Below are positions 7,409 to 11,378 of a stretch of 21,332 nucleotides of DNA, one piece after another (the stretch's first letter is position 1; each line of letters starts with the position of its first letter). This DNA comes from a virus. A model generated the notes under the pieces. That model had not been told where the DNA came from. It did no database searches and saw nothing but the letters and a program-made list of their open reading frames with translations. The translations under genes were made by a program, and so were the position numbers. The DNA is taken from the IMG/VR virus record IMGVR_UViG_3300048036_000560, positions 1 to 21,332 of that record; one strand, written 5' to 3'.

Positions 7409-7416
7409 TATTTATA
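7409..7416 (-). promoter_or_regulatory. late promoter (TATAAATA) for the nuclease run
   Basis: TATAAATA on the minus strand, lying wholly in the gap between the radical SAM stop (7417) and the nuclease ATG (7374), predicted leader about 29 nt. The position supports it more than the octamer itself. Confidence 0.6.
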
Positions 7417-9006
7417 TCAAGCAACCTCAAAAACGTAAGTTGAAGATGGATCATGTTTAACACAACCATTTAAATGATCAATTCTTTCTCTGCCACCTAT
7501 TTGGTAATCTCCGATATAGAATTCTTTTTTATATTGATCCATCAATTTTGTAAAGAGTTCTTCATCGGTTTCTGCTTTGCGGATCAGAGGCCACATGTCT
7601 TCTTCATAGTAAGCATATAATGCAAACGCCTTATTAAGAGTAAATACTTCTTCATTCTGCAGATAAGGCTTAGGCATATGTAAGAAATAACTATCGAGAA
7701 ACCCACCACTTAAAATAAGGTTGGGATCCATAAATCCGGCTTCAACTGCCATATCTCTTAGTTTAGTTCCATGATACGGCTGAAACATCGATACGGTAAG
7801 TCCATCGTAGCCACGGGCTTTCCTGATCATTCTGGCGCTGTCCATAACCATCTCCCTGGTCTCATATGGCATGCCAACTAAAACGTTTAAACTATAAGGA
7901 ATATTGCTTTCATTAATAATATGTAAGTAATCTTCATATACTGAATCTCTCATAGGGCGTAGTAAATATTTTTTACGATAGTCTGCATTACCAGATTCTA
8001 AACCAAAAGTCATACGATGTACACCAGCTTCTTTTAAAGCTTCAAGATATTCTGCCTTACAGTTTTCAACTCGAGTGTTAAACCAGAATGGAATCTTATA
8101 CTCTTTCCACATTTCACAGAATTCAAATATCTCTTTAGCTGGTCTTGCCAGAAAGCTATCATCTTGAAACATAATGAGATCTGGTCCGATATGCTCAATA
8201 TAATAATCAAGATCTCTCTTAATAGTATCAGCATCCTTGCGTCTCATATAATTACCGAGATCAAATTTCTTTGCAAGTTCACGAGTTCCCGGTGAATTAC
8301 AATACGTACATTTATAAGGACAACCTCTATATGTTTCCATACTTACGGCTCTATAGAAGTGTTTCCCGCCCATTGGCCTTTGCCAACGTTTGTCTTCATA
8401 GCAACTAAAGTCAGGAATAATATCATCTACATTACATAGTGGGTTTGGTTTATTTCTACGAACTCTTCCAGTCTCGTCTTTCCACCAAACTCCATCGACA
8501 GAAGAAATAGGCTTTCCTTCTTGCCAAGCAGTAATCATTTTATCAAAAGTATATTCGCCTTCATAAACCGCTATATGATTAATAAATTTAGATTTAAGAA
8601 CTACCTCTGGGGCCTGAGAAGGAAATACTCCGCCAATTAGATGTGGAATATTTTTATCTTCAATAGCTTCTAATAGTTTTTCTGCGACATGGAATACGTC
8701 TTCTTGCATAGACATAACGATAATGTCAGGTTTGTAATCTTCAACTACTTCTAAAAAGTCAGGAATAATTTGTGATTCTGGTTTTACATTAAAATATTCA
8801 CTATCTCTTTCGTCTTTTTCATTACCACGATTAGCACCAAACTTAGCGAGTTTAATATGACGATTGGAATATTCATCAGAGTATTCCGTAGTTTCGAATA
8901 CTTTATATTCAACTTCTCTCTTTTTACAAATAGCGTTAAATATAGCTACGCTAATGGCCGGAGACATCATTAGCGGTAGATTAGGATATGCCATTAATAT
9001 TTTCAT
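7417..9006 (-). CDS. B12-binding-domain-like radical SAM enzyme
   Basis: A 529-aa enzyme of the BchE/MiaB-like superfamily. Residues 1-165 resemble the B12-binding Rossmann domain: MKILMAYPNLPL, PDIIVMSMQED, HLIGGVFPSQAP and HIAVYEGEYTF. There is no DxHxxG motif, so any cobalamin would bind base-off without a His ligand, as in many relatives. The radical SAM core starts at about 218, with the 4Fe-4S motif C229-x3-C233-x2-C236 (RGCPYKCTYC). MTFGLESGN and GMPYETREM are typical barrel motifs. Such enzymes methylate or rearrange unactivated carbons. The substrate is unknown. It is translationally coupled (ATGA) to a second radical SAM enzyme, and its terminus is followed by a late promoter. Confidence 0.9.
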   Translation of the reverse strand: MKILMAYPNLPLMMSPAISVAIFNAICKKREVEYKVFETTEYSDEYSNRHIKLAKFGANRGNEKDERDSEYFNVKPESQIIPDFLEVVEDYKPDIIVMSMQEDVFHVAEKLLEAIEDKNIPHLIGGVFPSQAPEVVLKSKFINHIAVYEGEYTFDKMITAWQEGKPISSVDGVWWKDETGRVRRNKPNPLCNVDDIIPDFSCYEDKRWQRPMGGKHFYRAVSMETYRGCPYKCTYCNSPGTRELAKKFDLGNYMRRKDADTIKRDLDYYIEHIGPDLIMFQDDSFLARPAKEIFEFCEMWKEYKIPFWFNTRVENCKAEYLEALKEAGVHRMTFGLESGNADYRKKYLLRPMRDSVYEDYLHIINESNIPYSLNVLVGMPYETREMVMDSARMIRKARGYDGLTVSMFQPYHGTKLRDMAVEAGFMDPNLILSGGFLDSYFLHMPKPYLQNEEVFTLNKAFALYAYYEEDMWPLIRKAETDEELFTKLMDQYKKEFYIGDYQIGGRERIDHLNGCVKHDPSSTYVFEVA

Positions 9007-9962
9007 CTGTAGTCATTCAAATCAAAATCAGTACCATGCATTTTATATAAATCTCTTTCATGGTTAGTATAAACTAAAACTTCTGGATCATCAATTAGAA
9101 AATCACACCCATGACAATACGAAGGATAATTACCTAATTTATGATCAACTCTCAATTGATTATATTTATCTCCATACCAAATTTCTTCTAAGGTATTCTT
9201 AGACATGTGCCCCAAGACGGCTTCATCGTCTCGTCCGAGCACTTGGCAGCATGGGTGTATAGCACCCCGATTGCTATCAATACCGCCAGCACGTATGACG
9301 ACATCAGGACTGAAAGGACGACCACAGGTTTTTGTAGTACCTTCTCTACCATAGTCTGGTTCATATACTCCACTCCAATTATGCATTTTCCATATTTCAG
9401 TTTTAACACCAGCGCTATCTACTATTTTTCGATATTGCTCGACTTCATAATCAATATTAGTATTATCAAGAATAAGATGGTAGGTAGCTATAACAGCATC
9501 TGATCCTGAAGACTTTACATATTCCTGAGTTTCTATTAAGTTCTTATAGACTTTATTAAAGAAGGGACTATTCATCCACTCTTTATATTTTTCTTCGTTG
9601 TAACCAATCATTGAAAATCTAAAGAAATCTGTTCCAGCGTCGATTACATCCTTCATAAATTGACCAGACATTTTCATTCCGTTTGAAAACATAAATGCTT
9701 TAGCACCGTATTTTTTTACGATGGCAATATATTCTGGAAGATTATTATTAAGCGTAGGTTCACCAGATCCTTCAAGATTTACCACATTAAGACCAGCTTC
9801 TGCGCATTGTGCAACGCTATCTTCAAACTCTGTTAAAGACATTTTAGTTAGCCAATTTTTTCCGCGGGCGCCAGTTGATCCGTCTTTATTCGTTTGCGGA
9901 CACATCTGACAAGTATAGTTACAGCCTCCGTTTATTTCAATAACTGCTCTGTCTATTTTCAT
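9003..9962 (-). CDS. radical SAM protein with SPASM-like C-terminal cysteines
   Basis: A 319-aa enzyme. N-terminal EINGGCNYTCQMCPQT carries C14-x3-C18-x2-C21 for the SAM-binding 4Fe-4S cluster; EGSGEPTL (64-71) is the SAM-contact GGE-like motif, followed by FSNGMKM at 92-98. C-terminal cysteines C213, C238, C239, C283 and C286 (TCGRP, HPCCQV, YCHGC) resemble a SPASM/twitch auxiliary cluster domain as found in peptide or protein-modifying enzymes. Length fits. The start overlaps the stop of the 303-aa gene and the stop overlaps the next start, so the trio is one translational unit. The substrate is unknown; the product of the third gene or a glycan are candidates. Confidence 0.9.
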   Translation of the reverse strand: MKIDRAVIEINGGCNYTCQMCPQTNKDGSTGARGKNWLTKMSLTEFEDSVAQCAEAGLNVVNLEGSGEPTLNNNLPEYIAIVKKYGAKAFMFSNGMKMSGQFMKDVIDAGTDFFRFSMIGYNEEKYKEWMNSPFFNKVYKNLIETQEYVKSSGSDAVIATYHLILDNTNIDYEVEQYRKIVDSAGVKTEIWKMHNWSGVYEPDYGREGTTKTCGRPFSPDVVIRAGGIDSNRGAIHPCCQVLGRDDEAVLGHMSKNTLEEIWYGDKYNQLRVDHKLGNYPSYCHGCDFLIDDPEVLVYTNHERDLYKMHGTDFDLNDYR

Positions 9963-10870
9963 TTAATTTCTTTTCCAAGGTAAATTTCATAAAACATATA
10001 CATGATTAATAGTCCTTCAGGTACTCCTTCAAAATGAGCCCCGACTCTAGTTTTTTGTATATTATTAAAAAACCATAATAATTTTTCTTCGATAGCCGGA
10101 TCTTTATCAAACTCCCAGATTTCTAATCCGCTTTCTAATGATCTCCACTGTGTCATAGCTGATGCTGTATTCCATACGTCATCGAGATAATATGAAAAGG
10201 CTTCTTTTGATAGATCATACTGCTTAAGGTGTTTATATATGCATCCTTTAACAGTAGTAAACGAGACTCTTCTTCTTGGCCATTCCCAATTAGCTCTATC
10301 AGTATTAAATACATTGTATGGTATTTGAAATACTTCACACGGTGGCAAAGGAGTATTAATATCTTTCTTTACAGAAGCCGGATATACAGTATCAAAAAAT
10401 TTTAATACTTCGTCTACTAATTCGAGACCTTCATCCCAAGTTTCATATGCAAGACAATCATATGCCGCATTACAAATTTTATGATGATCAACTATTTCTA
10501 TTTTAGCGTCAGGAAAATCTTGCCAGCGTTTTACAGTATTTAATTTTTTAACTATTTCTAATTGTTTCTTAACATTTTCCAGATGTGTTTCTATTGGTTC
10601 CCAATGCCAAAATCTTTGACGATATAGGCCAGCGTGTGTCTTATGCAATTCTAACGCTTTTGGCAACATCTTTAATTTTTCATAGATTATTTCTGGGTCG
10701 CCGTCCCAATCTGGTATTCTCATCATCTCACACATCTGATCATAATTTAAATCTGCATCTTTGTGTTCTTGATAAAAATCTGTAAAATATATTTTTTCTT
10801 TTAATAAATCAAGTCTCCATTTTGATTTAGCCGTAAATATAGAAGTATCTTCAGGGTGATGGTCTAGCAT
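9959..10870 (-). CDS. unknown 303-aa protein of the radical SAM operon
   Basis: Not recognised. The protein is soluble, mostly helical, with unusually many Trp, Tyr and His residues (YRQRFWHWEPIETHLENV; DHHKICNAAYDCLAYETWDE; NTDRANWEWPRRRVSF). Helix pairs around WDEGLELVDEVLKFF and LSKEAFSYYLDDVW look like TPR-type repeats, suggesting a scaffold or substrate-binding role. His and Cys residues could bind metal but form no known motif. The start at 10870 has GGAG 8 nt upstream. It is the first gene of the operon and follows a GC-rich hairpin and a folded leader by about 20 nt. Constant coupling to two radical SAM enzymes suggests it is their partner or their substrate. Confidence 0.78.
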   Translation of the reverse strand: MLDHHPEDTSIFTAKSKWRLDLLKEKIYFTDFYQEHKDADLNYDQMCEMMRIPDWDGDPEIIYEKLKMLPKALELHKTHAGLYRQRFWHWEPIETHLENVKKQLEIVKKLNTVKRWQDFPDAKIEIVDHHKICNAAYDCLAYETWDEGLELVDEVLKFFDTVYPASVKKDINTPLPPCEVFQIPYNVFNTDRANWEWPRRRVSFTTVKGCIYKHLKQYDLSKEAFSYYLDDVWNTASAMTQWRSLESGLEIWEFDKDPAIEEKLLWFFNNIQKTRVGAHFEGVPEGLLIMYMFYEIYLGKEIK

Positions 10871-10889
10871 TTATATTCTCCATAGATCA

Positions 10890-10920
10890 AAGGGGAGGCT
10901 TTCTGCAGATGCCTCCCCTT
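10890..10920 (-). terminator. GC-rich 10-bp hairpin, terminator or attenuator
   Basis: AAGGGGAGGC pairs perfectly with GCCTCCCCTT around an 11-nt loop containing CTGCAG. On the minus strand it is followed by only TTTGATCT, a weak U-tract. The ATG of the 303-aa gene lies 19 nt downstream, and no promoter is visible between, so complete termination would silence the radical SAM operon. A conditional attenuator or processing hairpin is therefore more plausible. Confidence 0.5.
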
Positions 10921-10924
10921 CTAT

Positions 10925-11015
10925 TTGCATTTGACGTATGCAACAACCGACTGGGTTTTCTTACGGTACCAGTGCTTTTACCGACCTAAGCTAGAGGGCC
11001 ACTTCCTTACTTAGG
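10925..11015 (-). promoter_or_regulatory. structured leader RNA with possible H-type pseudoknot
   Basis: Untranslated gap of about 180 nt before the radical SAM operon; GC about 46% by hand count. Minus strand, 5' to 3': an 11-bp helix with two single-base bulges (11005-11015 with 10985-10997), then CGGTA (10979-10983) pairing TACCG (10964-10968). The loop of that stem contains ACTGG (10969-10973), which can pair with CCAGT (10950-10954), leaving an A-rich 9-nt third loop. This is the classic H-type pseudoknot topology. A TTGCAT/ATGCAA hairpin (10925-10943) and the 10890-10920 hairpin follow. A 21-codon frame coupled to the upstream gene (10991-11056) ends in the first helix. It matches no riboswitch consensus I know; function inferred only from position. 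Confidence 0.5.
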
Positions 11016-11052
11016 GTTTGCTTGAGTACGTTTGCGATATTGCAGGCTTTCC

Positions 11053-11286
11053 TCATTCGCCTTCCAGCAGTTGGATTCTCTCTTGGAGATTCTCTTGCTG
11101 AACTACTTGACGAGCTCTAAATGCAGCATAAGCTACTGCTAGATCTACATGCTGCTCGTCTATTCTATTCATTTCCTCATCGACACGGGCGATATATGCA
11201 CCAAGAGTTTTGTTGTGGTTATCCACTTTCTTGATATATTCGCCCATACCGTACATAGACAAAAACCAAATTATTGCTACTTCCAT
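11053..11286 (-). CDS. small coiled-coil protein with N-terminal hydrophobic segment
   Basis: A 77-aa protein. Residues 1-14 are hydrophobic (MEVAIIWFLSMYGMG), possibly a short membrane anchor; the rest is a long charged helix (YIKKVDNHNKTLGAYIARV; RQVVQQENLQERIQLLEGE) likely to form a coiled coil. AAGGAG precedes the ATG at 11286. The start lies 15 nt downstream of the mature 3' end of tRNA-Arg, so tRNA processing would define the mRNA 5' end. Resembles spanin-like layout superficially, without lipobox or proof. Confidence 0.7.
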   Translation of the reverse strand: MEVAIIWFLSMYGMGEYIKKVDNHNKTLGAYIARVDEEMNRIDEQHVDLAVAYAAFRARQVVQQENLQERIQLLEGE

Positions 11287-11301: not shown

Positions 11302-11378
11302 TGGCGAACACGGAAGGATTCGAACCCTCGACCTAGTGCTTAGAAGGCACTTGCTCTATCCAGCTGAGCTACGTGTCC
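11302..11378 (-). tRNA. tRNA-Arg (anticodon UCU), CCA encoded
   Basis: Full cloverleaf on the minus strand: acceptor GGACACG/CGTGTTC, D-arm GCTC...GAGC, anticodon stem AGTGC/GCACT with loop CTTCTAA (anticodon TCT), T-arm GAGGG-TTCGAAT-CCTTC, discriminator G, then CCA in the DNA. It decodes AGA, a codon frequent in this AT-rich phage. No intron or mismatch of note. It lies 6 nt after the stop of one small gene and 15 nt before the start of another, so it is cut out of a polycistronic transcript. Confidence 0.96.

Follow-up and report, generated by a model that had tools for sequence, protein, structure and literature searches.

What is a compact, pseudoknotted RNA doing directly in front of a radical SAM operon in a marine phage? 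The question is raised by a stretch of 21,332 nt (the window), a 21-kb IMG/VR fragment that protein comparison assigns to a T4-like marine phage. Its gp32 shares 69% identity with the gp32 of phage C48C1 and 57% with that of Pelagibacter phage HTVC008M, and the nearest relatives of its PhoH are cyanophage PhoH proteins. On the minus strand, the RNA is flanked by a 77-aa open reading frame (ORF) on one side and, on the other, by a cassette of three genes, two of which encode radical SAM enzymes. A sequence-only reading had taken the gap to be a structured leader of this operon, a role favored by its position in the window and by an H-type pseudoknot near a ribosome site. The features of the locus are:

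11302..11378, minus strand: tRNA-Arg(TCT), upstream of the RNA and in the same direction, as also in contigs L004, L171 and L115
11053..11286, minus strand: 77-aa ORF directly upstream of the RNA, with its stop codon inside the first loop of the 5' domain
11024..11062, minus strand: 5' domain with hairpin AGGC/GCCT, hairpin GC/GC and a pseudoknot of GAG (first loop) with CTC; covariation in 27 distinct copies
10985..11015, minus strand: P1, bulged helix CCTAAG.../...CTTAGG with apical GGCC; covariation, self-complementary core near the apex
10950..10983, minus strand: H-type pseudoknot with A-rich loop 3; stem covariation
10983-10980 with 10967-10964, minus strand: pseudoknot stem S1, CGGT with ACCG; C-G to U-A change
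10973-10969 with 10954-10950, minus strand: pseudoknot stem S2, ACTGG with CCAGT; A-U/G-C/U-A, U-A to C-G, and G-C to A-U twice
10925..10943, minus strand: P4, hairpin TTGCAT/ATGCAA with loop ACGTCAA; closing pair C-G/U-A/A-U, 13 double changes
10890..10920, minus strand: P5, perfect 10-bp GC-rich hairpin with a loop palindrome, CTGCAG; 8/9 pairs with double changes
10903..10908, minus strand: palindrome CTGCAG of the P5 loop, putative symmetric kissing site by the criterion of PMC12286853
7415..10885, minus strand: cassette of ORF303, a radical SAM/SPASM gene and a B12-binding radical SAM gene (Pfam), outside the RNA

Structure of the RNA in the window

The bulged helix, H-type pseudoknot, small hairpin and 10-bp hairpin described in the sequence-only reading are all present on the minus strand, from 11016 to 10890. 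Two details needed adjustment. The first helix, P1, exists but has 10 bp with a bulge in the minimum free energy (MFE) fold rather than 11, and in S1, read as CGGTA/TACCG, the fifth pair (A-T) is found in the window but varies in the family, whereas four pairs are conserved. Stem S2 (ACTGG/CCAGT) was described correctly, including the second loop of zero length that leaves no base between its 5' strand and the 3' strand of S1. The same is true of the A-rich third loop, TAAGAAAAC, of the ribosome site after P5 (GGAG at 10881), and of the absence of a promoter, no sigma-70-like promoter having been found in the window at the RNA. What had been overlooked are the self-complementary loops and the 5' domain (11062-11024), with which the RNA reaches 5' beyond its earlier limit to about 11062. 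Judged from its relatives, the RNA is about 130 nt long, plus an optional 5' pseudoknot domain of 40 nt. Its folding energy in the window is unremarkable (z -1.39, in a fold model that excludes the pseudoknot). An extra helix within the pseudoknot, AAC/GUU, was considered and rejected, as it shows zero covariation and one of its sides is invariant.

The RNA and the radical SAM operon occur independently

When contigs L171 and L115 are aligned with the window, both flanks match and a gap of 3.47 kb is left between them, corresponding to window positions 7415-10885, exactly the three-gene cassette. The tRNA-Arg, the small ORF and the RNA lie on one flank of this gap and a nuclease gene on the other, and the same order without the cassette is also found in L181 and L186. 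Conversely, in L004 the tRNA-Arg and small ORF are followed by a 21-nt gap and an operon of the same kind with the RNA absent, and L002 has the operon and lacks the whole RNA. The sequence-only reading had held that relatives keeping the operon but losing the pairing would count against a leader; in these two contigs the loss is that of the entire element. No copy of the RNA was detected in 85 comparison loci, nearly all of which have a radical SAM homologue. Furthermore, where the RNA stands behind gp32, the downstream gene is convergent, on the other strand, and a 5' leader is therefore impossible there. Synteny thus shows none of the linkage expected of a riboswitch or leader, which should be kept upstream of the gene it regulates and in the same direction. 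A switch by alternative pairing of ACCG with a second CGGU was also considered and rejected, since it is not conserved in members with UGGU/ACCA; nothing therefore points to a switch, and no Rfam riboswitch was matched. As a function of the family, control of the operon is already refuted by these contig comparisons, which establish that the RNA is independent of its downstream genes.

The cassette itself looks mobile: its insertion point coincides exactly with the 3' edge of the RNA, and it has TTGAT at both ends. ORF303 has no Pfam match, and a direct scan gave no homologues; homologues at the 31% level are present only in the comparison loci. Homologues of the 77-aa ORF, which likewise had no match in a Pfam search, precede the RNA in L115, L171, L181 and L188 and are 75-100% identical.

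Covariation in a family of phage RNAs

An exact scan with a 20-mer from the pseudoknot core led to nine other contigs, where the entire element is preserved in different surroundings. With degenerate scans, the family grew to 61 distinct sequences in IMG/VR and a more diverged group. An alignment of relatives had been proposed in the sequence-only reading as a check on the fold, and in it the pairs do covary, both pseudoknot stems included. Among 55 sequences, standard pairs occupy 95.7% of paired cells, two-sided changes are found at 17 of 31 pairs, and double changes number 177 versus 46 in shuffles (a level reached in 0 of 500), these being counts over related members, all from metagenomic contigs, and not phylogenetically independent events. 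None of five pairing measures was reached by any of the 500 shuffles, and sliding the partners out of register lowers pairing to 32-48%. With diverged members added, 13 of the 18 tested pairs have two-sided changes (0/500 shuffles), and among those with double changes are four of the five pairs in S2 and one in S1. P4 appears as CAC/GUG in L200. Paired positions contain 66 G-U but only 9 A-C mispairs; it is therefore the minus-strand RNA that is selected. Because its lengths modulo 3 are evenly spread and nearly every member has stops in each frame, the RNA is non-coding. Taken over the alignment, the covariation demonstrates the secondary structure, the two pseudoknots and the strand.

The impression that the element matches no known consensus was borne out by Rfam 15, in which no family scored above the gathering threshold: the scan of the window returned tRNA only, and permissive scans of four members returned noise. 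The marine motif Ocean-VI has no Rfam number and hence lies outside this comparison. No real match was found in 50,697 deposited phages by blastn with the 201-nt region and a 63-nt core consensus, and a model search of phages C48C1, HTVC008M, Melnitz, P-RSM6, P-SSM7 and S-SSM7 gave a single match with an E of 0.08. In bacterial genomes the core pattern gave 17 matches, all attributable to chance, and no host homologue was found. A marine phage RNA of this kind was not found described in the literature that the search could reach, which left out most subscription papers. The RNA thus appears to be a previously undescribed RNA gene of an uncultured group of marine T4-like phages, an earlier description being possible.

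The 5' pseudoknot domain and modular exchange

The 5' domain of the window and many other members has the pattern AGGC...GGGG...GCCU-AGC...GCU-AACGUACCC, a two-hairpin pseudoknot. All three of its helices covary in 27 distinct copies: hairpin 1 as AGGC/GCCU, GGGC/GCCC and GAGC/GCUC, hairpin 2 as AGC/GCU, GGC/GCC and GAC/GUC, and the pseudoknot helix as GGG/CCC and GAG/CUC. Other members have a plain hairpin at this position, or none. A scan with the 5' domain only yielded 15 new contigs; in twelve of them the core has diverged, and in the other three the model fails to recognise it. Because P1 and P5 arms follow the domain in all 15, it is part of the same RNA.

In L244 (6095-6251), L247, L252 and L245, the 5' domain, a P1 with CUGCAG, and P5 are kept while the core between P1 and P5 differs, which on comparison with the other members is an exchange of domains within one RNA. 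In L147, a 5' half of one type is joined to a 3' half of another, and recombination is what the sequences indicate as the origin of this hybrid. Weak model matches upstream of the strong copy, at L147:7109-7239 (minus strand, E 4e-4) and L100:2814-2944 (plus strand, E 1e-3), belong to another terminator-bearing structured spacer, perhaps unrelated.

Two self-complementary loops

The loop of P5 contains a 6-nt palindrome in 65/65 members: CUGCAG in 42, CCUAGG in 19, CUCGAG in 3 and CCGCGG in 1. Shuffling left a palindrome in an average of 1 of 16 distinct loops, and only 72 of 968 other GC-rich hairpins on the same contigs (7%) have one. The flanks of the palindrome are asymmetric, mostly A before and AA(A/G) behind. 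A self-complementary core is also present at the P1 apex in 65/65 members, as GGCC, GCGC, GUAC, UCGA, UGCA, ACGU or UUAA. It falls within the predicted loop in 18 of 23 distinct P1 loops, a figure reached in 0/5000 shuffles; the P1 of the window has GGCC only, partly paired in the MFE fold.

Changing palindromic loop cores in the OLE and GOLLD RNAs were taken as symmetric kissing loops, with cryo-EM support (PMC12286853). Both loops of the phage RNA show this switching between palindromes, in 65/65 members each, counted over related sequences, and because adjacent bases in one loop cannot pair, we interpret the changes as pairing of one copy with another. Two symmetric kissing-loop contacts, one through P1 and one through P5, are thus strongly suggested by the pattern of substitution. 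A P1 with UGCA never occurs together with a P5 with CUGCAG (0/8 versus 42/57; Fisher p 1e-4, uncorrected for kinship), a pattern that would follow if a loop had to avoid every partner but its own kind, and this exclusion fits two separate homotypic contacts. Contrary to strict separation, L191 has CUCGAG in both loops.

Genomic settings

The RNA is found behind gp32, in tRNA clusters and behind small ORFs, always directly after a stop codon or a tRNA, places established by the contigs themselves. Ten distinct members have it close behind the gp32 stop codon, almost all of them with a long opposite-strand gene that ends 2-21 nt past P5. In L129, L138 and L148, it stands six nt behind tRNA-Met. 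There is one strong copy per contig in 17/17 RNA-bearing larger contigs searched whole (14-221 kb). An entire RNA gene can thus go unnoticed in the 3' UTRs and tRNA clusters of phages, where annotation records only spacers.

A T-run of at least four follows P5 in 8 of 10 gp32-type members and in 13 of 49 others (it is missing in 36), and a scan of the window for intrinsic terminators found none. Since the T-run occurs in only part of the members, P5 could act as a terminator in no more than some of them; in the gp32 group it may be one. Of 48 distinct downstream stretches, 8 (L097, L115, L169, L173, L179, L180, L181 and L088) have the T4-like late-promoter motif NATAAATA no more than 60 nt after P5, versus 1.3% of random places.

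Unannotated structured stretches with the long closing stems AACTATTTTGATCAGCG...CGCTGATCAAAATAGTT and CTTCTTAATACTGC...TTCAGTATTAAGAAG lie directly behind the RNA in two sets of contigs, L129, L128, L138 and L148, and L107, L108 and L125. No Rfam match was obtained for these tRNA-cluster stretches in L129, L138 and L107, the three that were scanned.

Possible function of the RNA

We consider it probable, on comparative grounds, that this is a free-standing, homo-oligomeric small phage RNA that is co-transcribed, processed from the 3' ends of early transcripts and perhaps used as a scaffold in infection. Co-transcription and processing are probable because promoter-like sequence is absent in the window and the DNA upstream is gp32 coding DNA or a tRNA elsewhere. 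Lacking its own promoter, the RNA would be freed from gp32 or tRNA transcripts by processing, with P5 guarding its 3' end. Each of the two loops, P1 and P5, would pair with its counterpart in another copy, as their covariation suggests, to give a homodimer, ring or chain, and a stable oligomer would form in infected cells. The RNA probably works as such a pair or as a larger assembly. The least certain step is the role, which might be to serve infection as an abundant, stable scaffold, a small counterpart of GOLLD and ROOL. More tentatively, and with odds that we would put below even, RNA-only rings, chains or small cages might be built from subunits of about 180 nt, with the diversified palindromes in two loops directing assembly with their own kind during infection. 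Natural RNA-only oligomers are rare, and GOLLD, ROOL and OLE are all large. Small RNAs that covary strongly, come in many natural loop variants and recur at similar places in marine T4-like phages would be a simple system for asking what RNA assemblies do.

An unlikely alternative is that the element is a cis-acting 3' UTR cassette. It would shield the preceding mRNA or tRNA precursor against exonucleases at the 3' end, and would stop or insulate the transcript ahead of the following unit, which is often late. The constant position behind a stop codon or tRNA, the U-run of the gp32-type members and the late-promoter-like NATAAATA would all be accounted for, and the palindromes would dimerise mRNAs or be incidental. 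On the other hand, the U-run is lacking in most other members, a terminator or exonuclease block requires no strictly conserved pseudoknot, ACGUNAA loop or self-complementary loops, and there is one copy per genome despite the many transcript ends of such phages. We regard as very improbable an element acting as DNA (a recombination, origin or binding site with palindromes bound as duplex). T4-type phages have mobile stem-loop cassettes, which the modular exchange around the RNA recalls, and the L147 hybrid, the swapped core of L244/L247/L252 and the radical SAM cassette exactly at the 3' edge could be read in this way, but the G-U excess and the pseudoknot covariation indicate selection on one RNA strand, and the palindrome has asymmetric loop flanks. 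Less probable still is an RNA that acts as a decoy or much like an antitoxin, or that titrates a host defence factor as a sponge. ToxI is the pseudoknot RNA of type III toxin-antitoxin systems, and a small, phage-borne, single-copy H-type pseudoknot with an A-rich loop resembles it; there is, against this, no repeat array, and the bacterial matches were all chance. Control of the radical SAM operon, whether as riboswitch, attenuator or translational element, retains next to no probability.

Relation to known RNAs

The preferred reading of a small oligomeric phage RNA can be set beside several known systems. The HIV-1 dimerisation initiation site is a purine-flanked 6-nt palindrome and is alike in this respect, but it is part of a retroviral genomic RNA rather than a small phage RNA. 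The phi29 packaging RNA is a small phage RNA that oligomerises by loop-loop contacts in which non-identical loops pair, whereas each loop here is complementary to itself; T4-like packaging is not known to depend on an RNA. The phi29 RNA is named as a natural homomer in PMC12286853.

GOLLD and ROOL are phage-encoded RNAs, often near tRNA islands, that form homo-oligomers through kissing loops and whose function is unknown; the self-complementary loop cores of GOLLD covary (PMC12286853). They are nearest to the phage RNA in setting and presumed working, being phage-encoded, near tRNAs and equipped with self-complementary loops, although the oligomer is predicted here. By sequence and secondary structure it belongs to neither, as no match was found in the Rfam scans: it has 130-180 nt rather than several hundred, another secondary structure, a gp32 3' UTR setting and two loops with diversified palindromes. 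Loop L9.3 of OLE, a symmetric kissing loop with the palindromic core GGCC, GAUC or AGCU (PMC12286853), shows the same switching of cores, but OLE is larger, bacterial and unrelated in structure.

Theta ribozymes of gut phages are HDV-like, have a catalytic J4/2 and adjoin phage tRNA genes (PMC10879173). They too are pseudoknotted RNAs beside phage tRNA genes, but in the RNA described here the S2 and S1 strands abut without a hairpin, a tRNA is often not adjacent, and the distance to the tRNA 3' end varies. Membership in the HDV-like/theta group was rejected, as the alignment has no P3 between the S2 and S1 strands and no Rfam ribozyme was matched. The manA and wcaG motifs, known from marine metagenomes and T4-like phages and thought to be 5' UTR elements (PMC2864571), are similar as structured RNAs of marine T4-like phages; both are in Rfam, whereas the phage RNA has no match to either and does not act as a 5' leader.

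Host of the phages

Two of the RNA-bearing phage contigs also encode a permuted tmRNA of alphaproteobacterial type with the tag ANNNFAPSGYALAA, at L138:6549-6943 and L143:6787-7181, both on the minus strand. The type of this tmRNA hints at an alphaproteobacterial host for the phages that carry it.
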